DNA of 64,000 nt, from NCBI GenBank assembly GCA_030248225.1, contig JASANE010005137.1, positions 53,452 through 117,451 on the forward strand, in the 5' to 3' direction. The stretch is from Trileptium ribeirensis. Its lineage: Eukaryota; Nematoda; Enoplea; Enoplida; Thoracostomopsidae. The translations under genes and the position numbers were made by a program. Shown piece after piece: positions 17,660 to 59,122 of the stretch. The notes beneath the pieces were generated by a model. The model was not told where the DNA came from and ran no database searches. It worked only from the letters and a program-made list of their open reading frames with translations. Numbering within the stretch: position 1 is the first letter of the stretch; every line of letters starts with the position of its first letter.

Positions 17660-18711
17660 TAATTGCATACACCGCCGCGCGTTATTAAGAGCGAACTTCG
17701 AAGCACGTCAGACACATAACCCGAGCTATAGCGAGCCTAGTTGAACGTCTCGGGTATAGATTTTGATCCGGTACTACCGGGAAGGACTTCGCTCGCGCCA
17801 CCCCTTACTCTTTTTGCATTAGACAATGGTACCAATGGCCGCATCGGTAGATTATTGCTGTCTTAGTTCTTATTTACTCGTGTACCGTACCGAATGCCCA
17901 TTATTAAGTGACACTGTACATAACTTTAAATAAACTCTTGAAAATCACTTGACGTGTCCCGTGTTGTTGAACTCTCAGCGTGATAAGGACGTCCAAATGG
18001 ACGGGCCGGCCCTTCGTGCCACGGCTTGCGGACGCGAATACCCCAAGCCCTGACACGAGCGGTCCGCCACCAATATCGACTTAGTTGTGCAATGGTCTTG
18101 TAGCGAAAGTGGTCCACAAAAGGGTAACTAGCGAACCCACTTGGAAAATCCGCACACGCAAATAAAGGTAAAATTTGTTAGGAAAACGTTATCACTCAAT
18201 TCTAACACAGTCAAAATTATCACGTTACAAAATAGATAGTCCGACGCTAAACGTTTCAGGGCATGTCGGAACCCTGTGAGGGCCACGTGGCTACAGCGGA
18301 TAAAGTGTTCGGCTAAGGATAAACTCAGCGGAACTCAAAATTTACATAGCAAACCTAAATTTTCACGCGTTTTACCTTAAGTCGAGTCAGACAAAACAAC
18401 TTCCGTTAGCTTAGCATAGGGAATACTGGTTTGACATTATGACCTGTGAGCAGGTTTCGATGTCAACCTCCCTGGGGGACCTCAGCAATCATGCCAAGAT
18501 ACTAGACACGTGCGCAACCAATCGGGGGGGGGGTCCGAACACACCTCGTGAAGCGCACCTGCGGCCTGCTAAGCCCCATAGCTTCTTGGGTCTGAGCAAG
18601 AAAAGTGGCTAAATCGTAAAACCTATGATCTGCCTTTGAGGTTATGATAGCCGGGGTCGTATGTGCATGGTGTTAGGAAGTTGCGCCATGCAGCTGCGTC
18701 CCGTTACTACA

Positions 18712-20113
18712 TCGTTGGGGGCTACGCCGTGAGGCGTCCATAATTTTGTTTAACTCGACGGGGTGAGTTTAAATTTTTTTCTCTCTCGCCCAATTCATAT
18801 GTCGCGAGGCGTCTATTTTGTCCCGGTGATCGCAACGATCGTAACGGGAAAATTTTTACAAATAGAATTTATCTTGGTTTTAGTTTTGCTTAGACCTCTC
18901 GCATAATGGATGTTCCAACACGCAGTAGCGACTGACAATTGTTGAGTTTGCCCGAATATGCCTTATTACATGTGCTTGCCTTGTACTTGCATAAATCGTG
19001 TTATTTTGTTCCCTTGCCTAATCGATGGTCGTAGTTACCTAGTAGTGTCAGGACTTAGTCTGTTGGATTAACTATCGGGTAGAAGCAGCGACCCGTGTTG
19101 CGGTCTGTGAGTCCGGCGAGCGTCTTGCACCACAAGTGCAGCAAACAGTAGGGCTCTATTTCAGGAACTTTGTACTTAAAGACGCGTTTGATTAATTAAC
19201 TAGCCTACTATTTTATCACTGTGTACTAAGCGGCCAATTTATTCGTGGAATTAACACTGCTTCGTATTCTCGTGCAACAATTCAGCTTGTTTGTTCTCAC
19301 CGGGACGTATACTCCCAACCGTCAACGCATTTACTAACTCGGCTTTGGTCCGCGCATCAGCCTCGGTCAGGCAATCGTATCGTTTGTTCAGCGTCGATTG
19401 GATCGCGGACACCTGCTATTTCGGGACGAACGGACATTCAATTTGTTATCCGCCGCATTTTCATATAATCGTCACTGTCACCGCCGGGACGTTACGATTT
19501 TCGACAACGTGAATCCTGACAATAGCGCACTCTGCAATATCGTTTGCTCGCTCGGACCTTGTGGACCGCTCTACGGACGCTGTGCTACAGTCGAATAATT
19601 TATTGTTACACCGCTGGATTGACTCTTGCCTGGTGGACGATTGGTCTGGAAGATACGTGGATACCGTTTTTTTGAAACATTGTAATTCACATTTATATTT
19701 TGTTATATTTTCTTTTTGCTTATTCTCATTCACTTAATAACATTTTGTGTAACGTGCGCCGACTGTCGTTCAGGTCATTTTGGAGGTCACTGTTTATTCA
19801 GTAATTCGTGTTGCATAATTGAATCGCTGTCTTCGTCTGGCTGTTTAGTTTGCTGACTGGGACCGTTGAGTTGTTCTGACATCAGTGAAGGTACGGTCGA
19901 GGGAATTGCAAGCTTGCGGGCCGATTAAGGTTTTGTGGCTATTAAAATCTGGTAGAGCTAGCTTTTGTGCTCCTGATAAATTCGTAACCGAACGTGTGTA
20001 AATAGTAACCGCTTTCGATAATCCATGCCCTAACCATTCGCCTTACTATCGACTTAAAGCACGTGTTTTCATTTAGCTGAGCACCCTAGTGTTCACCGAT
20101 TGTGACTAAGACT
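18712..20113 (+). other. untranslated leader between 5' LTR and gag
   Basis: A 1.4-kb leader without a supported gene. It begins TCGTTGGGGGCTACGCCGTG; ACGCC-GTGA-GGCGT at 18,723 forms a small stem with a GNRA loop. A TGG lies five bases after the LTR, where a tRNA primer site would be expected, but I could not match it to a tRNA 3' end. The leader presumably carries the primer site and packaging signals. Confidence 0.5.
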
Positions 20114-22321
20114 ATGGCTTCCCACGCTAATCATAACGGAGACCTGGAAACCGACGACTTTCTTGGCTGGACTGACGGACATACGGAGGACAACATACAT
20201 CCTAGATCCCGAACTGCCGCTCGCACCGGTGAGCGACCGCTCACACCTCCGCCCCGACCCCCTGGAAAACTCCGTCGAGGGGAAACATCCGAGTCACCTG
20301 GACTGGATACAAATACTGCCAGCGCCATCCTGCACCACCTGACTACCCAACCAGCGGGTCCTGCCATGATCCCTTTGAGGGTTATGCCTACTTTTGATGG
20401 GAAACCGGGAGGCCAGGACTTCGAAGATTGGGTTCGAATGTATAATCGTCTCGCCAACGCCAATGGTTGGGACGATCGTCGAAAATTAATTTGCGTTCCA
20501 CCACTCCTGCGTGGACCGGCAAGAGAGGCTTTCGAGGGCCTTCCACCGGGAAAACGCCAAAGTTTTCTAGGATTAGTTGCCAACTTACGATTTTTATTCT
20601 CGTCTTCTCGCCGTCCAGGGAAATCATTATCAGGACTGTGCACCCGACAACAAGGAGCAAATGAGCCAGTAGCAATGTACGGTTTAGAATTGAAGAAGTT
20701 GCGTGATCGCGCTTTTCCCGACATGGAAGATGAGCAGAGGGACACCATGCTTCGCATGCTTTTCCAGAGGGGTTTACGACCTGCGGTGCGTAGGCAGGTT
20801 CTCAACCAGATTCATGAGTGTGAGATGTTTCGAGATATCGTGGGTGTTGCTAAGCGATACGAGGACGCTAGCGCTGCGTGCCCTGACCCGGACGCGCCTG
20901 TCGCTGGTAAGCCTCGCGCCAAAACCTTGAATTCTTTACTTGAGAAAGGAGGTGAAGGCCTGATCACACAGCTTCAAAATATGATGGAGGAGCATCGCAA
21001 AGCGAAGAATAGTAACAGCGATATAATCAGCCGGTTGCTGGATGTAATTGATATAAGGGTCGAGAACCCGCGCCAGCTTAACGCTCTCGCGCCGTCGTTT
21101 GTGCCTGGCTCACCCGCTGCGCCACCGTGTTTGCCGATGCCGCATATTACTTACTACCGCTGCGGAGAACCAGGACACGTCATGCAGGAATGCCCGTATA
21201 ACGTGCGCTACCCGCCTGCTGCCGTAAATGGTGCGCCGCGCAATGTCGAGCCAGCCCCAGTTTACGCATTTGGAGCCGCGCGCCGAGAGCCAGGGCAGCA
21301 AGGACCACGAAATGGTGTGGGCGCATACCCACGAAACGATAACTATAGTGCGGGCCGAGGAGGCCTCCCGCCCCAATTTCAGCGAGCTGAGAACAGAAAC
21401 GGATATCGGAATAATTCCGGGTGGAACAATCCACCCAACGCTGCAATGCGGGCTAGCGGCCCGCATCAAGCGGGACCGCAATATGGCCGACCACCGCTGG
21501 GATTCGCTAATAATAATAATAATAATAATCGCGGAAATGGAGAATATACCGCCATTCGCCCAGCTGATAACTACAACAACCGGCCGGCACCGGCCTATGG
21601 ATACCAACGGGCCCAAAGCGAACGACCCCAACCTAACCGAGGCATGGGTACACAGCAGCAGCCTGGTCGATTTTACCCCCCGGACGACGGTAACCGCAAC
21701 AGCGGTGCTGTACCGCGCCGGCGGTACCAATTAAATTGTAGCGCATCGCAAGGTAACGGAAATAGAGAACCAAGCCCAGCTACCGCTCATCGGTTAGAAG
21801 TGCTTAGTCGTGAACTCGGTATGATCCAAGGCAAACTAGGGTGTAGTGAACCGACCGGACGAGTGAACGCTATCGCGAGTACAGACGAACCGCAGTACGA
21901 CGATGACGGATATTTGATAAATCGACATGACGACCGGGACGACTTTGAGATGATGGACGGACTAGTTAAGAGACACCTGAACGTGATCACGACACCTTCA
22001 TGGACTGATGCCGCGCGTCTTCCTCGGAGCCGTGATCTAGTTCAGGTATGGACAGCCCCGGACTTATGGAATTTGGTCCTAGGGACTTGGACGACGAACA
22101 ATACGGCAATGAGCTCACTAGCACAGTATATAGTAAAGAAAATACAAAATACCAAAAAGAGGGATATTTGGGAGAGGGATTGTATATGTCGTGTGTGGAT
22201 GCACCCAGCGCGGGTGTTGATCCACGTGTACATATGTTTGCGAGCGAGCGAAATGGCGAGCAGCGAGGCGAGCGACAGACCGGTCAATCGAACTATCTGG
22301 CCATGCGAGGGCTCGGAATGA
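20114..22321 (+). CDS. gag: Gag polyprotein
   Basis: An intact frame of about 735 residues from ATGGCTTCCC. Gag forms the particle shell and binds the RNA. The retrotrans_gag capsid domain is visible at about residues 90-255, with FDGKPGGQDFEDWVRMYNRL at its start. A zinc knuckle near residue 345 reads YYRCGEPGHVMQEC: the pattern C-x2-C-x4-H-x4-C has Tyr instead of its first Cys (codon TAC, one base from TGC). A low-complexity Asn/Gly/Arg/Pro-rich stretch with AAT repeats follows (21,500-21,720). The last 90 residues overlap the acidic ORF and look unnatural in this frame, so the true Gag may end or shift frame near 22,040. Confidence 0.9.
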   Translation: MASHANHNGDLETDDFLGWTDGHTEDNIHPRSRTAARTGERPLTPPPRPPGKLRRGETSESPGLDTNTASAILHHLTTQPAGPAMIPLRVMPTFDGKPGGQDFEDWVRMYNRLANANGWDDRRKLICVPPLLRGPAREAFEGLPPGKRQSFLGLVANLRFLFSSSRRPGKSLSGLCTRQQGANEPVAMYGLELKKLRDRAFPDMEDEQRDTMLRMLFQRGLRPAVRRQVLNQIHECEMFRDIVGVAKRYEDASAACPDPDAPVAGKPRAKTLNSLLEKGGEGLITQLQNMMEEHRKAKNSNSDIISRLLDVIDIRVENPRQLNALAPSFVPGSPAAPPCLPMPHITYYRCGEPGHVMQECPYNVRYPPAAVNGAPRNVEPAPVYAFGAARREPGQQGPRNGVGAYPRNDNYSAGRGGLPPQFQRAENRNGYRNNSGWNNPPNAAMRASGPHQAGPQYGRPPLGFANNNNNNNRGNGEYTAIRPADNYNNRPAPAYGYQRAQSERPQPNRGMGTQQQPGRFYPPDDGNRNSGAVPRRRYQLNCSASQGNGNREPSPATAHRLEVLSRELGMIQGKLGCSEPTGRVNAIASTDEPQYDDDGYLINRHDDRDDFEMMDGLVKRHLNVITTPSWTDAARLPRSRDLVQVWTAPDLWNLVLGTWTTNNTAMSSLAQYIVKKIQNTKKRDIWERDCICRVWMHPARVLIHVYICLRASEMASSEASDRPVNRTIWPCEGSE

Positions 22322-23844
22322 ACGAACGAACTTTAACTGCAAGCGAAGATAGCAATGGTAGTATGGAGATTTTCGAGGAAATGGAAGATGGTTGTGTTCA
22401 AAATCATAGGTTGAGAGATTATAAGGGAAGTGTTGATTTTATTACCGGTAGTCCCCAGGGAATCGCCTCAAGGGGGAATTCCGGAACCCCCAGCTCTTTG
22501 GAGATGACTGCAGAGATTGCGAGTGAAGATGATGTTGTTGTTTTTGAAGAGCCATTGTTATTATTTTCCTCCTCTGTGGCTGGCCATCCGTGTGTTGAAG
22601 GTGTTGATGTTGATGATTCCGGCAGGGAAGCCGATGATGTTGATATGGCTCAGGAAGAATTGGATTTATTCGGGTCGCCGTGTGAGGCACCCATGGAGCT
22701 TTTAGAGGTCGGCGGACGACCAGGAATGAGGGAGGCTAGGTTGGATGATGATGGCACCTCATTAAGGCCGCCTGGCCCTAGTTCCGTTCTAAATTATAGG
22801 TCGTATGATGTAGTATGTGGGCCGGACCGCTGCGCGGGTCGTCCCTTGTGTGATGATGATAATTGTGTGTCGTATGAGTGTGCCGATTTGCCTAAGTTAG
22901 GACGCGCTTGTAGCCTTAGTGAATTCTTGGAACATGATAATGGAAGTGATGTTGATGTAATTGAATGCTACTTCGAACCGGCGAAGTATGCTATTGATGG
23001 ACTTGAGGTGACTTTCCCGACCTCATTGGCAAGGGGTTCCGCGGTCATTGGGTCCTTCCTTGATGCTGACCGGAGCCGCCCTTATCACCCGTACCCAAGC
23101 GGAGGTAGCGACAGGTTCGCGGCCGATTGCGCCAATGAAGCGGGTATGATCGTTGGGGCTGAAAGTATTGTCCGGGGCCTGCCCAGGTACGGGGATGTAG
23201 ATGGCAGGGTGGCGAATGAAGACTGTCCATCGCATTGTGAGGGTCCTATTGTGGCCCCCATCGTTGAAGCGCGCAGCGACGTTACTTGCACTGAGTTAAG
23301 TTTTTTCAATGAACCTGGTAGTGAAGTCAGCGTGAAGGATAAAGCTGAGTTTGTTGAATTGGTTGAACTGAGTGATTCGAAGGAGTCGGTGGAACTCCTA
23401 TTTGAACGAAGCGGATCCGTAGCGAGCGATGCGAACTGTTTAAGCGAAGCGAAAGTGTATAGTCTAAGTCAGGGTACCCCACAGGAATGCAATAATGGCG
23501 GGAATGACCCAGCGAATGAGCCTGAGCTCGAAGTGACTGTTGCGCCAGGCGAACTCGACGATAGTTACGACAAGTGCAACGATAGTGAGATAGACGAGGA
23601 ACGTATGCTGGACGACGAAGACTTCTGTACCAATTGGGTGGATCCAGATGCCGAATGGTACCGACGCGAACCCAGCCCTGATGCACTAGAGTGGCATGGT
23701 GAAGGGGTGTGGGAAGTGCGTCGTGAACTTAACAACGAACTAACGCGAGTACCATCAGATGACGGCATTGATTTAAGCTTGCGAGCCAGCCAATTGTCTA
23801 TCTGTTCTAGGAAGGAAATGATGCCGCAGGAGAAAACAATCTGA
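22048..23844 (+). CDS. large acidic ORF between gag and env, unknown function
   Basis: About 598 residues, rich in Asp, Glu, Gly and Ser, with no domain I recognise. It lies in the -1 frame relative to gag and overlaps its end by about 270 bases. The frame is closed by a TGA just before the ATG at 22,048, so a frameshift would have to occur within the overlap. Clusters such as EDDVVVFEEPLLLF and a Cys/Asp stretch near 22,850 stand out. Its C-terminal 15 residues (SRKEMMPQEKTI) are out of character and the downstream frame resumes acidic sequence, so a frameshift probably separates it from the next ORF. It may be a Gag-linked spacer, a scaffold or a separate accessory protein. It is not an Env or Pol part. 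Confidence 0.7.
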   Translation: MDSPGLMEFGPRDLDDEQYGNELTSTVYSKENTKYQKEGYLGEGLYMSCVDAPSAGVDPRVHMFASERNGEQRGERQTGQSNYLAMRGLGMNERTLTASEDSNGSMEIFEEMEDGCVQNHRLRDYKGSVDFITGSPQGIASRGNSGTPSSLEMTAEIASEDDVVVFEEPLLLFSSSVAGHPCVEGVDVDDSGREADDVDMAQEELDLFGSPCEAPMELLEVGGRPGMREARLDDDGTSLRPPGPSSVLNYRSYDVVCGPDRCAGRPLCDDDNCVSYECADLPKLGRACSLSEFLEHDNGSDVDVIECYFEPAKYAIDGLEVTFPTSLARGSAVIGSFLDADRSRPYHPYPSGGSDRFAADCANEAGMIVGAESIVRGLPRYGDVDGRVANEDCPSHCEGPIVAPIVEARSDVTCTELSFFNEPGSEVSVKDKAEFVELVELSDSKESVELLFERSGSVASDANCLSEAKVYSLSQGTPQECNNGGNDPANEPELEVTVAPGELDDSYDKCNDSEIDEERMLDDEDFCTNWVDPDAEWYRREPSPDALEWHGEGVWEVRRELNNELTRVPSDDGIDLSLRASQLSICSRKEMMPQEKTI

Positions 23845-23891
23845 GTGAGGGAGGCGATAGTGGCAGTGTCGCTGCAGGAAGTGTTAACAAG

Positions 23892-24611
23892 ATGAGTTCA
23901 GATCCACCAGTCGAGAACGTTCATGGAGACCCTATCCAAGGGACGCCTCGTATGCGCCTGGGTAATTTAGGTAGCTCCACTGATACGTTGGTCGACATCT
24001 CCAGCGGTATATTGGGACCCGTCGAAGAGGTGCCTGGTATGCCCTCGGGTAATTCGGGTAACCCAAATGAAACAGGTACTACCGCTGAGGAATCCGTCGA
24101 AGGGAGACCAAGTATGTCCCCGGGTAATTCGGAAGAATCAGTGAACTTGACTAGTGAGGAATCGGACACGTGTATGGGACAAGAGAATTTGCTTAACTTT
24201 ATACGAGAAGCTAACGATAAACGGGTACACCGACTTGACGAACAATTACTGGACATGTCTGGACTTTGTCTTCCCAATGATATGCCAATTGACATTGGAC
24301 GAGTTAGAGCAGTAACGGACAAGGAACGAAACCGAATTCTTGGGACTGACACACTGTTCACTATGTCTGCGGATCATACTGAGACTGCAGCCTATCAATA
24401 CCATCGTATCGAACTGACCGATCATGCGCATAACGAATTATCTGAGGGACTTATACCAATTAATTTTAGGGCTAGTGAGATTAATGCTGAATTCGGACAA
24501 CCTTTGACATTGCTACCGCAGGCTCTCTTTTATCTTAGAGTAATACTTGTAATGGAACAGCTAAATAATTTGAGCCGACTCTTTGAGCTCCGTTTCGAAG
24601 TTAGCACCTGA
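23892..24611 (+). pseudogene. continuation of the acidic ORF (frame-shifted)
   Basis: About 239 residues, Ser/Glu/Pro-rich at first, with a repeated motif of the type GTPRMRLGNLG / EVPGMPSGNSG / GRPSMSPGNSE (spacing about 30 residues). A more ordered segment follows, with helical-looking stretches near the end. The frame is open upstream of this ATG and joins the preceding acidic ORF after one frame change near 23,810. After the TGA at 24,609 the same frame continues open to 24,752 with a hydrophobic MLSSILGIISPIG segment, so the stop may be a mutation. Function unknown. Confidence 0.55.
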
Positions 24612-25141
24612 GCCACCTTACAGCGAGACGCCGCCATGCTAAGCAGTATATTAGGCATTATTTCTCCAATTGGGCATTGCATGACTGGAATGTACCTCGG
24701 CCCTGTAACTCTTGCTTCGTTGGAATCTTTCATAGAACTGGTGGCCAATGCGTGAATGGCCACACGCTCCAGCAGGTCATTGAGAGAGAATGCGAGATAG
24801 AGCTAAGCAGGGATCTGGTATGTCGCCAGTGCCAGAAGAGCCATACGAGAGATACGCGGGATATAGGTTTAAGATGCTACTTTTTCGGTCAACGAGGAAA
24901 GTGGAATTATGACGGTACGCTGAGTAACGCTTGCGCGTCCATCCTCCCGGATGGATACGTTGCACCTCATTGGCCCTACTGTAATGTTGGAATTCAGTCT
25001 ACCAGAATGCAGAAAACTTTTCGCGAGGCGAATCTCGAGTTACATGACCTCTTGTGCGAGGCGCCCTATCTGGTCGAATTCATTTATCGGAATCAAGAGA
25101 CACACGGTGTTCCGATCAACCTCTTTGTTGACCAGGAATGA
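24612..25141 (+). pseudogene. Cys-rich ORF upstream of env, unknown
   Basis: From about 24,640 to 25,141 one frame encodes a Cys-rich protein with CxxC pairs (CNSC, CRQC) and further single cysteines. The segment before the first TTG is also open, so the real start is unclear. It could be a zinc-binding accessory protein or an extracellular domain. No signal peptide is visible, so I do not call it the envelope surface subunit. It overlaps the next ORF by four bases (ATGA-type overlap), which suggests coupled translation or a common ancestor frame. Confidence 0.5.
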
Positions 25142-25701
25142 GTAATATGGAGTTTGACGACGAAACCCACCGACTTGCTCGACTAGTACTGTTAAGCGCA
25201 CGCTTGAGACTTTTACGGCGTCCCGACATTGCCAAATTGCTTGAGACAGAGGGGGACACGTCTGCTGGAATAAAATTGGACAGGGATTACTTAATTTCGG
25301 AACTGTGCTTGTTTCCGTACGACGGCTCCAGCTGTCCCGTCCCAAACTTGGACGAACAGTTAACCACGGCATTAGCCGCTAACCTCGACTCATCTGAGGG
25401 TGAATCGGAGGACAACTCCGACAGTGTCTCCGTCCAGCAGGAATGCGTAACCGAGTCGAGTGCCACGGAAACGAGTGACGGGGAAACTAAAAGCGAAACT
25501 ACGGGAAAAGCTGCGAATAACGAGACAAAAAGGAACCCAATCGAAATGGGATACGATCCTCTTCGCCGAGCCTTAATAATGGCCTCGGACATCCTTCAGG
25601 CATGTGGAGGGTATGTACAGTTGTGTTGTTGCTTTGGCTCTCAGCGCTTAGCTCTACACGCGCAACGCTTTCGCCATTTAGCGATTCAATCTCGCCATTA
25701 G
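25138..25701 (+). CDS. acidic ORF overlapping the env start, unknown
   Basis: About 187 residues starting MSNMEFDDETHRLARLV. It has an N-terminal basic/helical part, then a strongly acidic Ser/Glu region (SEGESEDNSDSVS), then a short ordered tail. Its last 100 bases overlap the env signal peptide in another frame. No domain is recognised. Confidence 0.5.
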   Translation: MSNMEFDDETHRLARLVLLSARLRLLRRPDIAKLLETEGDTSAGIKLDRDYLISELCLFPYDGSSCPVPNLDEQLTTALAANLDSSEGESEDNSDSVSVQQECVTESSATETSDGETKSETTGKAANNETKRNPIEMGYDPLRRALIMASDILQACGGYVQLCCCFGSQRLALHAQRFRHLAIQSRH

Positions 25702-27500
25702 GTGCTTTTGTCAATCGACAGGTAGGAGTGGTCATCGAGCCACAGGGTTTGGTGGTCACCTCTGACCAGACAACGCATTTGCCAGTGGTATTGCAGTTAT
25801 CACTCCGAGATTAGGAACGTAAGTCCGATCCTTATGTGAGTAAATTCTGTCCACATTATGAAGCGAACGGATCATGTCGCGCTGACTGCTGCCGAAAGGT
25901 TAACTGTACCGAATATCCACAGCTGCATAAGACATTAAGCGCTTTGGAACGCGAGCTAGATGACGCTTATCATGGAGTACTAGACACTAACTATTACTCG
26001 CTACTGGTGCATTGTTTTTGCATCGCAAACGAGCAACTATGTGACCTCACGAATCGCAGAGAAAAGCGTTTTGCTAGCTTGATTGCCGCCGCCGCTGCAG
26101 GTGCCGTCTCAGGCTTCTTAGGCCTGGGAATGGCTTTTGCCAATGAAGTACATATTAACAACGTTCGTCAGCAGGTAACTGTCCTCGAAAAATTCATGCG
26201 TGAGACTAACGATGTCTCCTTTCGAAATACTAAAGCCATAAGGCAACTGACCCGAGCAAATGAGGACATTTACGCATTTCTACACCATAGCATGCAAGAG
26301 GTAGTCTCTATGATAGAACAGGTTAGGTGCGCCGATCAGAAAGAGATGCGCACCATCAGTTAATAGATCACATCCTTCGAGCCAATATGCGCTCGTCGGT
26401 ACAGGCTATAATGGAATCCATGCTCAACGGCGAATTATCTCCCGCCATCATCGATGTCGTTATGTTACGACAGTTATTTTCCATGGATCCACGCATTTAT
26501 AAGACTATCCTCATGCGGGAGCCTAGCCTAGCCTATCAGTTCGGTCGTGTTATGCCCGTAAGTGTGGACCTGACAGCGTTCCGCTTTGGATTTATTTTGC
26601 AATTACCATTGCTTAAACGCAGCGATGTCCGACCTTATTTTCGGATCTATAACACCGGGTGGAACGCACCTGCCACGGTGACGCAACTGAGACTGCCGTT
26701 ACCCCAATACGCCGCCCGCTTGGGACATATTCGCTTCGAATCAGTTAATTTGGGAGCATGCAAGCAAAGACCCGGAATTGCTTTCTGTGAACCACACGCG
26801 CTGATAACCGATCATAGTACCAACTGCTTGGAATGGATTATTGCAGGTGAACACGTGCCTGAGACCATTAAACATACATGCAGCAACCACTCGCTTATAG
26901 GCCCACTTGCCAATGACACGTCTGTACACACGACTATACAAGAGTGTTAATCCGGACTAGTGAACCCGAGGTCATCTTGACAAATCGGAGACAACTAGCT
27001 CACGTTACATTGCGTAAGACGTAAGGTACCGCCTAATGGAGTCTTGTGGTTTCCACACGGAAACTACACCCAGTTAGTTATAGAGTCAATTGTACTGACC
27101 AGCATGTTGAAACCCGAGAAAATTACAATAAAATTCGGACCAAACATTACCATTGTCCGGCTATCCGGTATCAAACTAAGACCTTTGACATGGGACTCAC
27201 TCGACAACGCTAAGGCTATAAATTTGCAGGTAGCCCAAATAGCCAAAGAACAAGTACGCAAAGTGGTTAAATTCCCTGCGGCCGAAAATAAAGCAGGATT
27301 CTTGCTTTATTTTCTCATAACCGTTATTGTCGGGATAGTCAGTCTAATCTACTGTATGACCAAATGCAAGATTCCGCCTAAGTGCGGGTACTATATTACC
27401 CGATGGTTCCCATGTCGTGGACGACTAATTAAGTCTGATTGTAAGCATAAGAAAGAAATTCGCTGGATTAGAACAAAACACCGATTACCGAGTGCCCCAC
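25602..27500 (+). pseudogene. env: envelope glycoprotein, baculovirus F-like (broken)
   Basis: A class I fusion-type envelope that would sit in the particle membrane. It begins with a clear signal peptide, MWRVCTVVLLLWLSALSSTRA (25,602). A cysteine-rich short subunit follows. A furin-type site RREKR (about 26,060) precedes a hydrophobic Ala/Gly-rich fusion peptide starting FASLIAAAAAGAVSGF. Next come a heptad-type helical region, a larger ectodomain with paired cysteines, a membrane anchor (FLLYFLITVIVGIVSLIYC, about 27,301) and a basic, Cys-containing tail. Breaks are an in-frame TAG at 25,812, a frame change near 26,330-26,360, and further disruptions between 26,948 and 27,044. The tail continues without a stop into the protease. 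Its place before pol is highly unusual. Confidence 0.82.
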
Positions 27501-28073
27501 CCGCGGAAGACAACTTCCCTCATACAGACAGAACTTCGCCTACTGAGGTCACGGTTGGGCCTACGGGAACGCTGCGCGTGTCCGTCGCGTCTAGCCGTGC
27601 ACCACGTCGCTCGAATAGACTATTAACATCACGTAACTCATCCGAGGAGGAATTTGTTTTCATTGAGGACGACGAACTATTTGTCGCTCCCACTAGTGAT
27701 TCACGCCGTGGACCTCGTCAAGGTGTGTTCACTAGACAGTTAAACACCATGAATGCAGGCAACACTCCATTACTTATAAATGCAACCATACTTGGTATCC
27801 CAGTCACAACGCTTGTAGATACTGGAGCCTACGTCTCAATCATGTCCCAAGCCCTAGCTGCTTGTTTGGTTTAGTCCGTCGTGAACCGAGCACTACTCGT
27901 ATAGTATAAGCTACACAACAAGAATTGACGATCAGCGGAGTAGTGAAGGCACCAATTACAATAGGATCACTGAGCACACCATGCGATTTTCAAGTAACAA
28001 CCGACACTCCGTATGAGTGCATCTTAGGTACTGACTTCATGGCATTACTACCATATGTAGCCACAAATTTCTA
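27501..28073 (+). pseudogene. pro: retroviral aspartic protease, in frame with Env tail
   Basis: It cleaves polyproteins during maturation. The active-site loop LVDTGAYVSIMS is at about 27,811. A second conserved element, CILGTDFM, is at about 28,018, typical of Ty3/Gypsy proteases. Between them the frame changes after 27,870 and a TAG lies near 27,900. The upstream part of this frame is the Env cytoplasmic tail plus a Ser/Arg-rich and acidic linker (27,590-27,690), so Env and protease are encoded in one frame. A TAA follows at about 28,072. Confidence 0.8.
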
Positions 28074-28163
28074 AGACCGCTGCTTGGATCTATCTAACGG
28101 GCTGAGAACTGCTCGGCACCTTTCGCCGACCAAGGGGACTACCGTCCCCCAGTCATCAACGTA

Positions 28164-30594
28164 ATGACTAGAAAATACACTCAAATACCACCAAATACAG
28201 AGTTGTTCATCAACGCCGTCCCGGAAATTACTCAACCACCGACAGGTCAAGCTTTATTTGTGGCTGACCCCTTTATTAGGGACATTGCTATTGCCCACTC
28301 TCTGGTACTTACTAGCCAACGTATGATCCCTTTAGCACTGATGAATTTTGGGAACCTTCCCGTCGCCATACACGCCGGCCAGACAATAGGACATATTGAG
28401 ATGCTTGATAATAATGAGGTCGAGTTTTTATATGACAGCAACAAGCGTTTGCTACAGTTTGACCCTCCGAGACGCACTAAGCAATGTAACAATATCGGAG
28501 TCACAATATACAACGTTGTACAAATCATAAGTGAACAAAAGAAGACAATTGACACCGAACGATCTATACAAGTTTTGAGTAAAATTGACTTCGGACAAAC
28601 GACCCTTAACCCTTACGAGCTCAAACAACTGAAGACAACCACCTCTGAAAACGCAGATATATTTAGTGTACACCCATTCGATCTAGGAAGGTGTGGTGTA
28701 CGCCAACATAGAATAGTCACTGGAGACGCAAGGCCTATTAAACAGGTACCCTACCGCCTAGCACATTCATTGCGAGAGCCCTTGCGTGAGGAATTAAACA
28801 ATATGGTAGAAGCAGGTCTCATAACGCCATCCGATTCACCTTGGGGTTCCCCATAGTTTACGTCACTAAGAGTGACGGCACCTTGCGGTTGTGTGTCGAC
28901 CTTCGTAAACTTAATGTAGTTGCAGAACGCGACTTATACCCGCTCCCCCGCATAGATGACATATTGGGTTGCCTTAGGAACACCAAATTCATGTCTACCT
29001 TAGATCTTAATAAATGTTTCTGGCAACTAGAACTGAACCCCGAGACCAAGGAGAAAACCTCCTTCGTCACTGTCCACGGACAGTACGAATACAACGTTTT
29101 GCCATTCGGACTGAATTCTTCACCAGGCTACTTTCAAAGGTGCATGTCAATCATATTAAAGGGCTTAAAATGGCAACGATGCCTCATCTACATCGATGAC
29201 ATATTAGTCTTCTCACCTACATTCGATCAACACCTAGCGGACCTAATTATGCGGCGTTCACGTTATAATGTCCCCAACGTTTGGAACCTATGTACCCCAC
29301 ACAGTGTCAGACACACTGTTGACAACAGGGTGTCTTAGACACCCCCATGTTTTTAATAAATTTTTTCAACGGTAGCTAGTTACGCGTATTACCACTTGCC
29401 GACAGTGTCAGGCACACCGTGTCTTCTGGCAGTTTTATTGACACTGTTCGGAATTATTTGAGCAATGTTCATATGGGCTAGATACAAATATCGAGAATTT
29501 AGGAAAAACTCCACAGGACAGTTGACTAATAAACCGCATTCGCTACAGACGGTGTCCGTTATAGTTAATTCGCGCCAAATTGGTAGCTAAGGGTGTGTAC
29601 GACACTGTCTAGAAAAAATTTAGTAGCTAAGGGTGTGTCGTACACCCTCGGCATTTGATTTACAGTATGGGTGTCACCCTGACTGTCTATACGGTAGGGT
29701 CGCGACTACAGGGGGTCAAAAGTTCCAAACAGCGGGGACATTATAACGTGAACGCCGCATTACTGTATTTGATAGGTTCCGTAAGGCCAATGTTAAATTA
29801 AAACCTTCCAAGTGTCAATTTGAGCAGAAACAATTAAAATACCTCGGACATATTATTAGTTCAGCGGGAGTCAAACCCGATCCCGAGAAAACCGCTACTA
29901 TAGACAATTACAAACGACCGGAGACCCTCAAAATTTACAAAGTTTCCTAGGACTTGAAGGGTACTATCACAAATTTAGACCACACTACTCAGACATTTGT
30001 GAACCGCTCAACGCCCTTCGGCGAAAGGACAGTGAATTTAAGTGGACCCCGCAATATGAGGAAGCATTCGGAAAGCTACGTAAGGCCTTGTTCCAAGAAC
30101 CATTACTTATATACCCGGACTTTTCTAAACCTTTCATACTCCAAACGGACGCTTCTGGATATGCCTTAGGAGCCGTTCTTTCACAAAAGACCGATAAAGG
30201 GACATTGCCTATCGCCTACGCGAGCAAGTCACTTGTGGATTACCAACGCCGATATCCTGCCGTAGAGACTGAGGCTCTTGCCATACGATGGGCCGCCTTA
30301 CACTTCAGGCACAATCTACTTGGACACGAATTCCATGTTGAAACTGACCAAAAGCCTCTCAAGGCACTGTTCGAGAGACCATCGCGAAATTCGCGACTAG
30401 CTCAATGGCGTAACGAATTACTGATGGAATTCGGTGGTTTCAACATCGAATATAGGCCAGGTAAGGCAAACTCCAACGCAGACGGACTTTCACGCGATCC
30501 CCGACACGATGTGGAATTTTCTTACTCTTCGGACGAAGCTGAACCGGACGAACAGGACCATCCTCGAATAGTTGCTGTAGCTGTTAAAGGATAG
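28164..30594 (+). pseudogene. pol: Pol: reverse transcriptase and RNase H (broken by a MITE)
   Basis: Ty3/Gypsy-type RT and RNase H, which make cDNA and remove the RNA template. The N-terminal frame (28,164) holds RPIKQVPYRL and ITPSDSPWGSP, then stops at 28,855. The next frame (28,841) carries LRLCVDLRKLN, STLDLNKCFWQLEL, LPFGLNSSPGYFQRCM and the catalytic YIDD at about 29,193. A 510-bp MITE interrupts at 29,250. Beyond it are the thumb (KPSKCQF, YLGHIIS) and, after another frame change near 29,945, RNase H with the acidic motifs QTDASG, ETEALAI and ETDQKPL. The terminal NSNADGLSR motif is present. A TAG ends the frame at 30,592. Confidence 0.9.
29250..29759. mobile_element. PIF/Harbinger-type MITE (510 bp) inside the RT gene
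   Basis: Terminal inverted repeats of about 38 bp start TGCGGCGTTCACGTTATAAT. A TTA duplication flanks both sides (29,247-29,249 and 29,760-29,762). It belongs to a different family from the MITE at 17,180, although both begin TGCG. The interior is full of short palindromes built from GTGTC...GACAC and GGGTGTGT(C/A)(G)TACAC. No coding capacity. Confidence 0.9.
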
Positions 30595-31291
30595 AATAGT
30601 GGTAAAGGCAAAGCTCCAGCTAAGCCGTCTCGACGACTTCCCACCGAAGAAGCTTGGAAACGACTTACTCGACAACTCATGGGGCTTCCCCCGGATGCTC
30701 CCGTCAACCTACCGCCTGAGTACGTTCGAGAACGCTTCTATCGTATGTTTGGAGGACCTGGTTATGATCCCCTACCAGATCCAACGCGTTTCGTCTTCTG
30801 TGTTCCTGTGGAGACATAGACGACCCATGGCCTGAAGGAGTTGAGGTACTTTGAAGACGGACGACTGCCCCAGGACCGCCAGAACCCACTGGTGAACCGA
30901 CCCGCGGACCCTCGTCAGCACCCGATCCTTCCGTTAGGCCTACGTTGCCTCAAGAACCCCCGACCGCTCCGACACCGCCTGCTCCTTTTTGGCGAGTGAA
31001 AGCTCGACCCGCGCCACGGCTGGCACACCTGAGCCATCTAGACCATGCACCCTACCGACAAATGCTAGATAGAGGTATGGTGGTTTGCCAGAAGTAGAGG
31101 AATTTGACACCTTGATTAGGGTTGCGTACGCATGCGGACCACGAATACAATTACAACGTCCTGAACAGGTCTACGACACAGGTGAACACATATACTTACC
31201 ACATTTTCAGCAATACGAGGGAAGGAATCTCGTTAATTACTTACCCTATATTCAGCGTTGAGATAAACATTTTGGCCCCATTTGGTGGTAT
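30595..31291 (+). pseudogene. Pol linker between RNase H and integrase (degraded)
   Basis: Stretches of plausible Pol protein lie in changing frames here. Near 30,601 one frame reads a Lys/Pro-rich segment then PPDAPVNLPPEYVRERFYRM, followed by stops. No domain is recognised. The number of frame changes suggests several indels in 700 bases. Confidence 0.45.
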
Positions 31292-32728
31292 TTGCACACA
31301 CGACAGTCGCCAGCCGACGAAAAGGCAGCGACCGCCCTCAAGCTAGAAGCCCACCATTACAGACTCTGCCGCTACACTGCCATTTTATACCTACATCCCT
31401 TAATGCCAAACGACCATAGACCTAAACTATGCGTACCCAGACTGCTCATACGACAAATACTCAAGCATGAACACGACACCTTATTCGGTGGACATCCTGG
31501 TAGGGACCGACTACTGGGCAAACTTAAACAGTTCTATTACTGGAAAACCATGGGTAAGGACGTAGACGAATATGCTAAACGGTGCGTACTCAGCCATCGA
31601 TCAAGGAGCCTACCCCAGAATGCGCGAGCCGCGCTCGGAGAGAACCCGTTGGCCAGTGCACCCATGCATCGCATGTTTGTCGACATATTGGACACTCGAG
31701 TGTTTTCCCGAAACGGAAATAGGTACGTAATTGCCTTTATCGACCAGTTCACGAAACTAGTAGTTGCCGCTGCCTTGCCGGACCAAACCGCTAAGATCGT
31801 AGCCAAGCTCTTTATCGAGGACGTGGTGCGCCGTTACGGCGCACCCGAGGAATTGGTCTCAGACCGAGGCGGGTGTTTCGTCTCAGAAGTAATAGGGGCC
31901 TTGTGCGCTAGACTACATACATTTAAACGCGAAACGCTCAGCTATAACCCGAAGGCAAACGGAGAAATTGAACGTTTTAACCGCACTCTACTATTTCTCC
32001 TAAGAGTAGCACTGCCTGAAAAGGACCATACTACATGGGATGAAGTTCTGCCGTATTGCATCATGTCCTACAACTCAGCCGTACACGCTTCCACGCACTA
32101 TCCACCATTTATGCTCATGCACGGATTCCAACCCCGAGTGCCGGGTGGAATCGAAACACAAACTGATTGGGGACGCTACCCCGGAGCCGAAGCATATCGC
32201 GCTAATGTGCAACGGTGGTTAGCCACCATCAGGGATAGGGCCTATCGGTCCATGAAATCCGCTCGGGAATATAGAAAAAGGTATTACAATCGTAAGATCA
32301 AGGTTCCCTACTACCGAGTTAATGACCATGTATGGGTATACCGATACTACACTACACCTGGCTTATCTCGCAAGCTAGAACGTAGGTGGTGTGGACCATA
32401 TCAGATCACCAAAATAATGCTCCCTTGCATTTGCGTTAAACTCCCCGGCCAACGTAATGCTTCCGATCATGTCGTTCACATAAATCGCACCAAACCATGC
32501 TATCGTCCGCTAAGCAGTTTACCCTACTTGGCTGATTTACTCAAAACAGTCCCTCCCGCATATATCGAGGCTGCCCTACAGGAACCCGGAGAAACTATCC
32601 TCGCCGATAAATATTTCGCTAGGGAATTACAGGCTGAGGATCCGGAAGCAGTCGACCGGTTGCGCCAGGATATTGATGGTGCATCCGACGTCGCTAGTGT
32701 AGAGATTGGAGAACCTAACCTAGAATAG
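31292..32728 (+). CDS. pol: Pol: integrase
   Basis: The longest intact pol piece, about 478 residues. It inserts the cDNA into host DNA. The N-terminal zinc domain has HEHDTLFGGHPGRDRL, then RCVLSHRS, where the second Cys of the expected CxxC is Ser (AGC, one base from TGC). The catalytic core has Asp in MFVDILDTR, Asp in VSDRGGCF and Glu in NPKANGEIERFNRTL, so DDE is complete. A GPY/F-type C-terminal module is visible as RRWCGPYQI (about 32,388), followed by DHVVHINRTKPC. The protein then continues into a charged tail and stops at TAG 32,726. No chromodomain is seen. Confidence 0.92.
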   Translation: MHTRQSPADEKAATALKLEAHHYRLCRYTAILYLHPLMPNDHRPKLCVPRLLIRQILKHEHDTLFGGHPGRDRLLGKLKQFYYWKTMGKDVDEYAKRCVLSHRSRSLPQNARAALGENPLASAPMHRMFVDILDTRVFSRNGNRYVIAFIDQFTKLVVAAALPDQTAKIVAKLFIEDVVRRYGAPEELVSDRGGCFVSEVIGALCARLHTFKRETLSYNPKANGEIERFNRTLLFLLRVALPEKDHTTWDEVLPYCIMSYNSAVHASTHYPPFMLMHGFQPRVPGGIETQTDWGRYPGAEAYRANVQRWLATIRDRAYRSMKSAREYRKRYYNRKIKVPYYRVNDHVWVYRYYTTPGLSRKLERRWCGPYQITKIMLPCICVKLPGQRNASDHVVHINRTKPCYRPLSSLPYLADLLKTVPPAYIEAALQEPGETILADKYFARELQAEDPEAVDRLRQDIDGASDVASVEIGEPNLE

Positions 32729-34800
32729 CCGCAAGCGCAGGCAGACATACACCGCGCCGCAGCAGAACAGCTGAGCATTCAGGCTCAAGACACATCCGGA
32801 GCCCCGCAACAAAACAGACTTCCCCTTTGTGATCCCGACAGAACTCCAGACACCGAATGGCCAACCATATCGCAGGAACTCGCTACACGAGACCCCGCTA
32901 AGTTACCTTACGCGCTTGATAAACCCCCTGGTACTTTCTCGCCTGAGTATGGACAACACACTGCCCCTGTAACTCTACGAGAACAGCAACGAGCAGTTCG
33001 GGCTGACGAGCCTACAAGACCTCTAACGGTAAAACGCTCCGGTAACGGTCGCGCAATACGACCATTCGACGTTAATGACTTAGGTCTCGTGGAATTACTC
33101 GCTTCGCAGGACCCGGACGAGCACTCGCCCCATACTCCAGAACAAGCTGCATCTCCAACTTCAGCAGTTGAACATGCTGTTCAAACTCGCCGCTTACACC
33201 CGCCCAACGTCGAGCCGCTATCGCTACCCAAACATCCCGCATCCCCCAGACACAACGCTTAGTGACTGAGTCAGATCAGCCATTGACGCCATACCATACC
33301 TATCGCGAACCTATAGCGTCTAACGAGCAACAATCCCTCAGACCTCGTCAGGCAAACTCCGCCCCATCTACCCCACTTCCACACTCATCCCTAATGCCAC
33401 TAGGATTCGAAGCCACGTTAGAGGACTACGTCCCAGACGAATGGCTCATGCCATATTATACCCCTCCTAGACCACAACCCGCACAATCCGCTCCAGTAAA
33501 TAGCCAACCTCCACTGGAACCTGCACCAACACCGAAACCTAAACCTAAACAACGGCGGAAGCCAGCTAAAACTCCCACACCGACTAGTGAACCAGTATCA
33601 TCCATAGGCTCGGAGACCACCTCACCTGAAACAATCGATTCCACGACACCACCTTACCAGTGGGCAATGCCACCCTTATTGTCGCCCCTAAAGGAACAAG
33701 GAATCGAGGTTCCACAGGTGCCATCCTTTGGTCGATGGACCACCCGAAGACAAAATGAGCTAGCACAATGGGAATTGGAAATGCAAGAAATAAGTAGGAC
33801 TAGAGAGGACGCCGCCTATGCCCGAGGTGAAATACAGGATGCAACTGAACTAATAGAATACTTAAGGGGGTCACCCGTACAATACACCCCTCGGAAGCTC
33901 AAATAGCAGCCGACGGGATTGTAGGAGAATTTATTGAGAGCTTAGCTCGACAACGCGAAGCTGGTAAGCCAAGCACAAGTGAACAAAGCCGACCTTCCGA
34001 GTCTTCGGAGGGCGGTCGACCCAAACGATCGCGACCACGGACCGCAGAAAAGGACAATGAGACAACATCAACCATTGGCGAATCAACCAAGGGCTCCTCT
34101 ACCAGGAGGAAGGGAAGAGCGCCGCCGCGCAGCGCACCCTCTGCCCAAAAGGGAGTTCTAACTCAACCAACACGCACTAAACCACGTGGACAAACCGCAG
34201 CCAGAGCCCAATCACACGTTAGTCGGGAAGATGAGGAGGATGAGGCACCTCTTAGTCAACTTTTACCGGGACTCCGCCGAAGGCCCCACTTTGAACTCGA
34301 CCCTCCAGCGGAGGAGAGTGAGGGATCTCCAGAGATGGGACCCTCTTCATGCCAAGTCAAGGAGATGGAAGAACCCCCTCAACCTATTCGCTGACAGCCA
34401 CATAGACAAGCCAGGGACCGTTGTCGTTGCTACGACAAGTATATACTACACGGAGAAGAAGCTCGAGTCATAATACCAGGTCTCGACACCCGAAGTTTGG
34501 AACACCGAACTACTGCACCAGCTCGACGGACTATACCGCTCGCTCCACCGACTCGTCACCGCGACCCTGTTATGCCGATGGACTACCCATCTGGCAGTGC
34601 TCGTGCTCGGCGCGACATGTTTGAACCTTTTAGGGACATATTTGACGAACAGGACATCGAGGACATGTTATCCGCACATCCGGACTTGCAACCAGACAAG
34701 GACAACGGACAACAACAAATACACGAAGATCTTGGATTGGAGGTGGTCCGGCCTCCTAGACAACCGCCTCGCGGGAGACGGTTGTAACGTTTGAATCATT
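32729..34800 (+). pseudogene. Pro/Thr/Gln-rich region after integrase (broken frames)
   Basis: Two kilobases with coding character but no ordered domain. From 32,729 one frame continues the integrase frame after a single TAG as a Gln/Pro/Asp-rich chain to about 33,260. A 214-residue frame (33,262-33,906) follows, rich in Pro, Thr and Ser with a PKPKPKQRRKPAKTPT segment and an acidic helical C-terminus. Shorter frames to 34,787 keep the same composition. It may be a disordered Pol tail or a separate structural protein. No homologue recognised. Confidence 0.5.
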
Positions 34801-34912
34801 CAAGAAGCACCACCCCGAAAACTCGAGCTCCCACCACCAATCTCCCTCAAGAACCGCCACTAATGGCGATCAATACTATTGCAGGAATCACCAATTCAAA
34901 GAACTCAACAAC
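34800..34912 (+). promoter_or_regulatory. splice-acceptor candidate before the NADAR gene
   Basis: The sequence ACTATTGCAG|GAATCACC at about 34,876-34,893 precedes the NADAR start ATG at 34,913. The second genomic copy has TATTATTGCAG|GAAACATA at the same distance (47,819-47,836), although other upstream sequence differs. A conserved pyrimidine-AG site suggests the gene is expressed from a spliced mRNA, perhaps from the donor in the LTR. Confidence 0.4.
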
Positions 34913-35211
34913 ATGGAACAACTTCCGCAACCTCTTGTGCCGTATTACACCATCAACTATGGTGGTGCGATCGAAACGTTCCTATCCAAAGGCAGACGAT
35001 GGCCGGAACTCTCAAATATGGCTCCATTGGGCCAAACAATACAACAGTACCCCACCCAATACGCTTCGACGGAGCAAGGGTACCAACTCCTCGTCAGGTA
35101 CCTATTCGACGAGGAACAGGCGAAACAGGACATATCAGACTTGAAACTGGGAGCTCGAGATGTCACGGCCAACTCCCGTAGGAACAAACAAAAGTTCCTC
35201 GACCCCGAGAC
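34913..35211 (+). pseudogene. NADAR-domain protein, truncated by 3' LTR
   Basis: The first about 100 residues of a NADAR (YbiA/DUF1768-like) domain. NADAR enzymes act on ADP-ribose-linked or related N-glycosidic substrates. Visible parts are FLSKGRRWPELSNMAPLGQ, then YASTEQGYQLLVRYLFDEEQ, where the Glu of the S-x-E-Q/H core motif is kept. Next is ISDLKLGARDV. It is collinear with the copy at 47,861. After FLDPE the sequence jumps directly into LTR sequence, so the rest of NADAR and the SGNH part are deleted. The open frame runs on into the LTR to 35,341 by chance. Confidence 0.8.
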
Positions 35212-38200
35212 AACGATATATGGCGGGTCTCCGCCCGACTCCTCGCCAGCTCGCTATAACCCGTTAAAGTGCTCCCAATTCGGCACACCGATTGACAGTG
35301 GGTACAAACCAACCGAAAATTTATCCCTAACTCGAAAGTAGGCAAATCGCCCCTCATCGTGTTCATCACGTCGATACATCTTCAAAGATGCCCGGCGGGT
35401 CTCCGTCCGTTGTCCCGTTAACCCGGGACAGCCGACAAAAGCGCCCCACCACTATCGACACTCTCTCTATCCGTAGCGATTTTAGTGCCTCTCTAATCGC
35501 TGCTGTTAGGGCAGGGAAAACACCTCATTTGAATCGCCTTTACAAGGCGAGTCCAACGGTACCTAGCGGGCGTGGCTCCGCCTAATCGTTAGCGCGGGAA
35601 AGCCCGCTGAATCCCTGTATACTTATATATGTCGGAACCCAAAACTGGGTCCCGACCCACCACTACGTCTAACCCCCTCGTGTTTGGTATCATTCTGCCC
35701 CGTTCTTCGTCCTGGAACCGAATTTCACCCCAGCCCCTCGAAAATCCCTTGGGAACCCCCTGTCCCGCCTCCCTTCCCGTGCCCCTTCTTTTCCGTTTTG
35801 CGTCCTCGCTTTTCTTTTCTTTTCTTTCTCTAACCGACTTCTTTGTCGCTGTCGTCGCGGTGGCAGTGTTGTATTTGTTGTTGTTGTTGTGGTTGCTGTG
35901 TGGTTGTTGTTGTTGTTGTTGTTCTGCGTGTTTCTGGTGTGAACTTGAGCGACCTTTCCTTCGCTCAGGCCGCCAGTGTGTCTCATGTGTAGTATGTGTT
36001 TATGTGTTCATGAGTATTGTATATATGTATGTATGTGTGTATGTATATAGAGATATATGTATATATATAGTATATAAGGACATGACAAAAAATAGGACAT
36101 ACAGGGACAAAACGTACAAAACGACGTTAAATCCGTAAGTTTTACGGACGGACTGGGCAAGAACGACTAGGAAGGACGGGGGTATGTTTAGGGCCCTCCC
36201 GTGGGTTCCTGAGGCCCCTGACTAGGGCCTTCGCGACGGATATAGGTACAAGGGAAGGTGCCGCGTCCTCAACTACAAAATAAGCTCATTCCCGCCATCG
36301 GTCCCCCCTTTCGGGACTTCTGAAGACGCCCTATTAGGATATTTGCAGAGCTGTCAGATAGGAATGTTTGGCTTTATCCCATAAGCCGACATGTAAACGT
36401 GCAATGCTTGCACGTTTACCCGTGGATTTGATCGTAAGATCTAGCCCCAGATGGACTTTTAAGAAGCTTACGTAGCTGATGGATGGGGATGCTAACTCGA
36501 CAAATAGCAGAAATTTGGCCTTAAATCGGCGAGTTAGCCGACGGAGATTTGATGAATGAGGACAAGAAGACCAATCTGTCCCGAAATGAGGACAGATTTC
36601 TAGCTTACTCCAAGCATCTTTAGGTAGAAAAGTAGATTTTAAAATTTTAAAATTGACGGGTGATCTTACCATTTTGTGGGACAGTTGGGGGATAACGGAT
36701 AATTTAGGATTAGGTAAGAGATTTAAGAGATCTGAGTAATGATCTTTGGATCAAATTTTGACATAAATTTAAAAACAACGATGGATGAAGTTCAAGATTT
36801 CGCTAGAATTTGGGCTAAATTCACAGGTGTTCGACCTCCGAGTATTCGGAGGGTTCAAATTTGATGTCGGCGATTTCGATTGAAGCCGACTCTCTAAAGG
36901 AGACCCAGGGTTTACGATAGCTGTCAAAAATAAAATTTTCGGAATTTTTCGATTGGGCGCCTGGGTTTGAACTCGAAAAGTGGGCGTTAAAAGATCATCG
37001 CCGATTGGATGGCGACAAAATCGCTATCCTTCAATATTGGCGAAAATTTTGAGGCGACGACTACCGAGTCGTCTCTTGGAATCAGTTCGACTTCGGCAGC
37101 GCGGTGTTCGGTCGACTTTACTGACCGGCTCCGACGCTTGAGTTTTCTAGTGCAGTTTCGTAATGTTTGCTCGCTTTCTTGTGGAGGCCCACGCAGACAT
37201 CTTTCGTCTCGCGGAAGGGGACTAGCAATTGCTGTCCCGGATCGACTGCTGAAAGTTAGGAGGAGAATCGAAAACATGGGGGTTTATTTTCTCCAGATGT
37301 AACAGTGACCGATCATTCAAAAGAAAAAAAACAAATTTATTTGATCATGGCTCGACCTTGCATTTGACAGGTTGAATCGGCGCCCGTCGTTGGAAGTCTC
37401 ACCTCCCCCCCCGCTGATTTTCTACTCTTTTACATGTCATTTGACAGACCTCCTCAAGTCGAGTTCCGTTTTGGGCATCTTGAGCGATTGCATGGAAGGT
37501 ACTAAATTGTAGGCACCAAAGTCGAAGTCCTTCTGATTCCCCGTGGTCTTAGATAGGACGAATCAAAATGGACGCTTCTCGTCCATATTTTACATGATGT
37601 GTTGCTCTTGAGTTAGGACTAATGAATTTTCTTGAGTAGACCACGGTAAAAAAATTTCCTGACGAGATAGTAGGGATTTGTTTCGTTGTTTACGATTTCG
37701 GTTTACAAATTTACAGTTAGTGGACCGTTCGACGCTCATGCCGCTGTTTGAGCTCGAACCGACTTTGCAGTTAGGAACGGGGGACTAGCCTCCGTTGGGC
37801 TTTAGGAAGCCCCAAAATTCCGTTTACTCGAACGAGCTAAGAAAATTTGGGAGCATAAAAGATTAAACAAATTTTAAGTGTTTCAGCTTGAGTATAAGGT
37901 ATTAGCACTCCGTGAGCAGCGATTTTTGTACAGTCTTTGCACGATTTTGTCCGTATTCATTTAGTTCATTATTAAAACGGTCATTACTAGCATTGTATAG
38001 GGACCTACCCCTGACTACTCGAGTCCTCGACTCCTTGTGACTCTACTCGCTGGGAACTCACAAAGGATACTGCCCTATAATGCTTACTCCGAAACTGTCA
38101 CGATCAGGCTATTAAGTTCACCTAAGTTTGTTGTGACATGCACACGTGGTCAAGCTTAATAGTTATAGCTAGGAAAATAGCTTTCCACTAAAGTGAGCTG

Positions 38201-47817: not shown

Positions 47818-47860
47818 ATATTATTGCAGGAAACATAACCGCATCACAGAAATAACATCA

Positions 47861-59094: not shown

Positions 59095-59122
59095 ATGCAT
59101 ATCCTATACATTACAAGTTAAT

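Follow-up and report, generated by a model that had tools for sequence, protein, structure and literature searches.

In the nematode Trileptium ribeirensis, giant Ty3/gypsy retroelements encode an envelope-like protein (Env) between gag and pol, and in sibling copies gag, Env and pol, with its protease (PR), lie in a single uninterrupted open reading frame (ORF). The copy from which this arrangement was recognized is found in a 64,000-nt stretch of contig JASANE010005137.1, hereafter called the window, to which coordinates refer unless a locus is named. This element spans ~13,112-40,457 (27.3 kb) and is a decayed copy, with internal frame pieces in the order gag, accessory stretch, Env, protease, reverse transcriptase (RT), RNase H (RH), integrase (IN) and a proline-rich end. 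Judging by the frames of sibling copies, intact elements exist in the genome, and the gag-env-pol order and the shared frame are confirmed as ancestral and not as damage. The original prediction, made from the window sequence alone, had noted the order and the shared frame of Env and the protease, and had raised ancestry as a condition; in the sibling frames gag is part of the same single frame as well.

Gene order and reading frame in sibling copies

The genome (687,459,628 bases in 20,229 contigs) was searched piece by piece with parts of the window copy. Only the best candidates were scored, so that all sibling counts are lower bounds. For the piece containing the Env anchor, the tail and the start of the protease (query 26,999-27,871), the best 134 of 1,780 candidates were scored. 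All 133 matches besides the window span the Env-protease junction, covering at least query residues 13-278 with 81-88% identity, and 119 are stop-free within the match. Their open frames reach 1,000 amino acids (aa) in 87, 2,000 in 56, 4,000 in 12 and 4,700 in 8 of the 133, and the longest sibling frames measure 4,705-4,749 aa. For the Env signal piece the best 150 of 1,108 candidates were scored, for the integrase piece the best 88 of 5,403 (92-94% identical, excluding the window) and for the gag piece the best 70 of 2,577 (84-88% identical, excluding the window).

Loci were compiled from 69 gag, 150 signal, 134 Env-protease and 88 integrase matches, with one of two half-gag matches of contig C13130 omitted. 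The four pieces follow each other as gag, Env signal peptide, Env-protease and integrase on one strand at at least 21 loci, the window included. In four tests within 9-12 kb, no reverse-order pair was observed among the scored matches, and none of these has env after pol, a finding that would have spoken against the original prediction. The open-frame length is equal for all four pieces (4,082-4,749 aa) in 10 of the 21 loci. Locus C15157 has 4,725 aa for gag and 4,711 aa for the remaining pieces, and the frames are unequal at the other ten loci, among them the window. One TAA codon is located inside the gag match in five of the ten single-frame loci; since the same frame is reported for those matches, it is presumably close to the 5' limit of the match. 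In the single-frame loci the spacings between the pieces are almost constant and are multiples of three. Also, the window pieces flanking the accessory-Env break match neighbouring segments of a single, continuous sibling frame, indicating that this break is decay of the window copy.

The window copy consists of many frame pieces and lies within a cluster of related fragments, as would be seen if env had entered between gag and pol in only one copy, by insertion from a foreign source or by rearrangement. This explanation has virtually no probability left: the 133 other junction-spanning matches and the 21 ordered loci rule out an insertion or rearrangement artefact. No insertion boundary was found in 27,440-27,760, where the original prediction had suggested looking for one, and all 133 other scored matches run through this linker.

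A second subfamily, represented by L037 and L038, stands at ~75% DNA identity, with the same Env-protease layout and frames of 4,733 and 4,732 aa. The presence of such a divergent subfamily with the same layout suggests that these elements have been replicating under selection for a long time.

Env and its junction with the protease

The signal peptide, the RREKR site, the fusion-peptide-like stretch, the membrane anchor and the DTG motif were located at 25,602-27,818, ahead of RT and integrase as predicted; positions were counted from the listed reading frames, and the anchor limits are approximate. The anchor, tail and DTG motif are part of one open frame of 291 aa from stop to stop (26,999-27,874), slightly longer than the originally claimed 27,044-27,874. 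The window frame is interrupted within the protease, where DTG and ILGTD (28,021) are in different frames. In sequences simulated with a dinucleotide model, the linker 27,437-27,760 was open in the given frame in 0.99% of cases, and the whole stretch 26,999-27,871 was open in 0 of 20,000. Against a coding function, a codon-usage path trained on gag and pol scores 26,795-28,113 as non-coding at two of three switch penalties and places coding in the Env-protease frame (27,021-27,862) at the mildest penalty only; the 133 other scored matches decide this in favour of coding. Across 18 pieces of the main element only the fusion peptide and the anchor exceed the hydropathy threshold, the signal peptide being below it; thus no anchored env is seen after pol in the window.

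The original prediction described Env as F-like. Its layout is that of a class I fusion glycoprotein, with a signal peptide, a hydrophobic fusion peptide immediately preceded by a furin-type cleavage site, and an anchor at the C-terminus. A family match could not be added to this likeness, as no Pfam family recognizes Env above cut-off in the window pieces or the sibling stretches. A single-sequence model of Env has long helices, is weak (predicted local distance difference test score, pLDDT, 54) and was not relied on for heptad repeats. In a set of 5.8 billion proteins, no homologue was found of the Env-protease piece or of the sibling Env stretch (7,991 candidates scored for the latter), and eight distant homologues of the integrase were found, the best at 33%. 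No relative of the element was present in viral-contig or genome-contig sets.

Selection on Env and the linker

Ten sibling stretches of 2.5 kb were taken from long-frame copies, eight of them near and two from the subfamily at ~74-75% DNA identity. Nine are stop-free and one contains a single stop, and the coding frame of the linker is stop-free in all ten, with 4-10 stops in each of the other two frames; picking long frames favours stop-free copies and biases these counts, and affects the ratio of non-synonymous to synonymous substitution (dN/dS) less. For the eight near siblings (28 pairs, not independent of each other), the dN/dS values are 0.445 for the stretch before the signal, 0.023 for the ectodomain, 0.047 for the anchor, 0.092 for tail plus linker and 0 for the protease start. 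Between the subfamilies, the ratio of the proportions of such differences (pN/pS) was used, as synonymous change is saturated before the signal and in the ectodomain; it is 0.079 in the ectodomain and 0.195 in the linker. By these ratios, Env and the linker between tail and protease are under strong purifying selection.

If the Env-like domain had lost membrane fusion and were retained to anchor assembly at the membrane, anchor and tail would also evolve under constraint, as observed. This is improbable, given that among the long parts the ectodomain is under the strongest constraint (dN/dS 0.02) and that the furin-type site and the fusion-peptide-like stretch, like the anchor and DTG, are present in 10 of 10 siblings.

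A possible membrane-threaded polyprotein

The element probably produces a single polyprotein in which Env is threaded through the membrane of the endoplasmic reticulum (ER) and Pol remains membrane-tethered until the protease cuts. The polyprotein would start in the cytosol with Gag, and an internal signal sequence before Env would direct passage into the ER, where a signal peptidase cut would free Gag. The Env ectodomain would reside in the lumen and be cut by a furin-type protease, and the Env anchor would return the chain to the cytosol. On that side, the Env tail would hold the newly made protease, RT and integrase at the membrane until the protease cleaves the tail, and equal amounts of Env and Pol would be produced and packaged at the membrane. 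Because the chain would cross at the Env signal and return at the anchor, Gag and Pol would both be on the cytosolic side. A membrane-tethered Pol is likely and consistent with this topology. Alphavirus-type structural polyproteins similarly contain a capsid, followed by internal signals and membrane glycoproteins, in one chain; unlike the element described here, in which Pol follows the glycoprotein, they have no replicase after these parts.

The hydrophobic map of the siblings has one fusion peptide and one anchor above the threshold, and a signal-like stretch at a laxer threshold. Cysteines number 12 in the 539 aa presumed to be lumenal and 1 in the 132 aa of the tail, and their higher density in the former fits a lumenal ectodomain. 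In L011 and L020, two loci of other families described below, no Met is present within 60 residues before the signal, so that the signal is most simply internal there, unless a splice supplies the start.

Several observations weigh against this reading. Env has no match to known families in sequence and profile searches. N-glycosylation motifs do not tell the two sides apart, their density being about the same in the tail (1 in 132 aa) as in the ectodomain (5 in 539), and a 1:1 ratio of Gag to Pol would be unusual among retroviruses. In addition, all ten siblings have an ATG with a purine at -3 where the Env signal starts, despite the fast evolution of the preceding stretch (pN/pS 0.46-0.52), and a locus of another family, L009, has a Met four residues before its signal; both hint at separate initiation.

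These start codons fit an alternative in which the same order and frame serve two products. Gag would come from full-length RNA, by early termination or with env spliced out. The conserved ATG would act as a second start, used on a spliced or subgenomic RNA to make Env-Pol or Env, and the continuous frame would have a role for Env-Pol alone. This alternative deserves consideration and is nevertheless unlikely. No splice donor with at least 7 of 9 consensus positions is conserved in all ten 2.5-kb stretches (gag, the accessory region and the leader being outside the scan), no acceptor of the scanned kind occurs in the tail-linker, L011 and L020 lack the Met, and gag and Env are in the same reported open frame at 10 of 21 loci. 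For the single polyprotein, a replicating lineage with a mid-polyprotein Env under strong selection makes one-to-one production of Env, Gag and Pol, and their sorting across a membrane, testable.

The gag-protease slot in other families

Further loci of the same genome were picked from its RT list, mostly for long frames and thus as a biased choice (10 stretches and 15 more). L009 has a 2,368-aa frame containing CCHC, a signal, the class III-type fusogen domain Monjiviricetes_fusion (PF24664, E 9e-21), an anchor, protease and RT; among the RT matches listed, seven have a score of the L009 family, with frames of 839-2,368 aa. L011 and L020 have a layout of the L009 type with an Env without Pfam family. 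This Env has a weak likeness to that of L009 (20% identity and E 2e-11 in pairwise BLAST, 55% probability in profile comparison) and no resemblance to the window Env. A superfamily 1 (SF1) helicase (AAA_11/AAA_12) is located in frame ahead of the protease at L015:130-2262 (-) and L022:4099-5592 (+), with AAA_12 E-values of 3e-50 for L015/L014 and 5.6e-45 for L022. The L015/L014 frame was seen as two adjoining stretches, for which the RT list gives one 2,327-aa frame, and the gag of L022 is outside its frame.

The distance between CCHC and DTG is 818 aa in L009, 833 in L011, 840 in L020 and 886 in L015. It is 147-148 aa in L016, L018, L021, L024 and L026 and 130 in L028 and L032, and in this interval of these seven loci no segment exceeds a hydropathy of 1.5. 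In the RT and IN trees, no starred set joins the window family with other env-bearing families, and the trees leave the number of slot fillings unsettled.

On balance, these families slightly favour the view that single-frame Ty3/gypsy elements of this genome have a cargo site between gag and protease that can be used repeatedly, occupied in frame by a class I-like Env, a class III Monjiviricetes-type fusogen or an SF1 helicase. With both fusogens, the polyprotein would cross the membrane twice, yielding Pol as a membrane-tethered Env-Pol chain, a solution that would have been reached with two unrelated fusogens. No class III fusogen or helicase between gag and protease of a Ty3/gypsy element was found in the literature, in a search that left subscription papers mostly outside; as far as it shows, the unrelated fusogen or helicase in this slot of other families is new here. 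Neighbours with unrelated fusogens in the same place offer a view of how retroelements become virus-like agents by fusogen capture.

Directly downstream of the helicase-bearing gag-pol frame, L014:5131-6465 (-) is an intact 445-aa frame with a weak GDSL match (E 0.031), NADAR-like by eye only.

Relation to known elements

The textbook order of retroviral genes is gag-pol-env, with a dedicated RNA for Env. Gypsy/errantivirus-type elements have a class I-like Env layout, shared by the element described here (signal, furin-type site, fusion peptide and anchor), and place env after pol. In contrast, env here lies inside the polyprotein before the protease; no separate env after pol was found, as judged by the order of the scored matches and by the lack of an anchor-like segment after integrase in the window. 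In the elements of this type, env is described as a separate ORF (PMC6431247).

The original prediction held that known env-bearing retroelements place env after pol, and considered the Env-Pol assembly mode undescribed as far as it was aware. The first does not apply throughout, and novelty of the arrangement is not supported, as an env in frame between gag and pol was reported in 2019 for Burro, giant Ty3/gypsy elements of planarians (PMC6431247). The single-frame gag-env-pol architecture is thus already known, in the literature found for Burro only. According to the published description, Burro has an ORF1 of 4,873 and 5,140 aa, a total length of >30 kb with an internal region of up to 25 kb, MATH, BIR, ankyrin and BCL2 motifs between gag and env, and a dUTPase-like domain between PR and RT (PMC6431247). 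As far as this description goes, the Trileptium element resembles Burro in being a giant element with long terminal repeats (LTRs) and one very long ORF1 in which Gag comes first and Env precedes PR-RT-RH-IN in the same frame, with an extra coding region between Gag and Env; an env within a giant ORF is found in the siblings (4,705-4,749 aa). For the MATH, BIR, ankyrin, BCL2 and dUTPase-like motifs, no Pfam hit was obtained in the broken pieces of the window (28098-28853 for the dUTPase-like domain). A difference is the NADAR frame near the 3' end of a relative.

The bdelloid TelKA elements also have a captured fusion glycoprotein, and GDSL esterase ORFs are described in related elements; their glycoprotein is ORF3, apart from gag and pol (PMC5408684). 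The chuvirus glycoprotein of Anakin is of the same kind as in the L009 family. Anakin differs in being BEL-Pao and not Ty3/gypsy, and a glycoprotein inside the gag-pol frame was not encountered in the accessible part of its description (PMC7642597).

Features and completeness of the window copy

Membership of Ty3/gypsy follows from the LTRs and the PR-RT-RH-IN order, as seen in Pfam hits, the LTR-LTR match and motifs (Table 1). The internal region is ~16.5 kb as present, and the copy would be ~30 kb long once a loss of ~2.7 kb on the 3' side is added. The two LTRs match over ~5 kb; their 4,960 aligned columns contain 183 mismatches, and 29 indel events were counted (LTR start taken as 13149). 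Given this divergence, decay after insertion would be enough to explain the frame breaks, and sequencing errors may have contributed. The codon-usage path assigns coding signal to most of 20,103-35,300 and often changes frame, as expected from a decayed copy; at two of three settings, signal is missing at 26,795-28,113 and 29,246-29,869.

Table 1. Features of the Ty3/gypsy copy in the window
Feature	Position	Strand	Basis and remarks
5' LTR, TG...CA, ~5.6 kb	13112..18711	+	LTR-LTR match; 5' edge by homology with another LTR at 1372
gag, CCHC-like knuckle, first Cys seemingly lost (by eye)	20103..22045	+	ORF 20090-22321; zf-CCHC E 0.0011, just below cut-off; codon-frame path; siblings 84-88%
gag-env spacer/accessory coding region, four frame pieces	22046..25602	+	frames, codon path; no Pfam family above cut-off
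Env signal peptide and ectodomain start	25602..25814	+	frame 25,521-25,814; 150 scored matches in own genome, self included
Env, furin-type site RREKR (26055-26069), fusion-peptide-like stretch from 26070	25815..26363	+	92% to three siblings
Env ectodomain, later part	26327..26950	+	94-95% to three siblings
Env stem, membrane anchor (27284-27373), cytoplasmic tail/linker, protease start with DTG (27818)	26999..27874	+	frame, hydropathy, simulation, siblings
Rest of protease, different frame, ILGTD at 28021	27875..28097	+	motif
PR-RT spacer and RT start	28098..28856	+	end weakly matches solved peptidase A9/RT/RNase H chains (E 0.018); no Pfam hit
Reverse transcriptase piece	28790..29335	+	RVT_1 E 5.6e-22
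RNase H	29860..30591	+	RT_RNaseH_2 E 4.9e-34
Integrase	31262..32725	+	Integrase_H2C2 E 1.3e-15, rve E 6.2e-11; siblings 92-94%
Pro-rich coding region after integrase	32729..34391	+	frames, codon path; no Pfam hit
Start of further frame, truncated counterpart of NADAR frame 47856-48365	34760..35209	+	80% over 59 aa to 47982-48158; no Pfam hit itself
3' LTR, first ~37 bases and ~2.7 kb of preceding internal DNA missing compared with relative	35210..40457	+	LTR-LTR match, comparison with relative

The protease is recognized by a gag-asp_proteas match (E 3.7e-4, below the curated cut-off) and the DTG and ILGTD motifs only, and the single-sequence fold of 28098-28853 (pLDDT 31) is too poor to use. 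A SIAH-like RING suspected by eye in 24605-25141 was not supported by searches. Rfam at gathering scores and a tRNA scan returned nothing.

Pieces of related elements were also observed at 7781-8643, 12476-13111 and 1372-6280, the last including a near-complete LTR. The DNA directly upstream of the main 5' LTR is similar to the 3' end of the internal region in the relative at 50 kb, so that this LTR may be part of a tandem. The 3' end of a related element (47856-48982) has a NADAR domain (PF08719, E 6.4e-11) followed by a frame that is GDSL/SGNH-like by eye, without Pfam hit; of the NADAR part, the main copy retains the start only. NADAR domains in retroelements have already been published (PMC12477816). 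A further NADAR frame is present at 62396-62971 (E 2.8e-22), within 55437-62974, together with an rve integrase (59993-60976) and a Pox_A32-type ATPase (61209-61703). The genes of this last region are presumably Polinton/Maverick-like.
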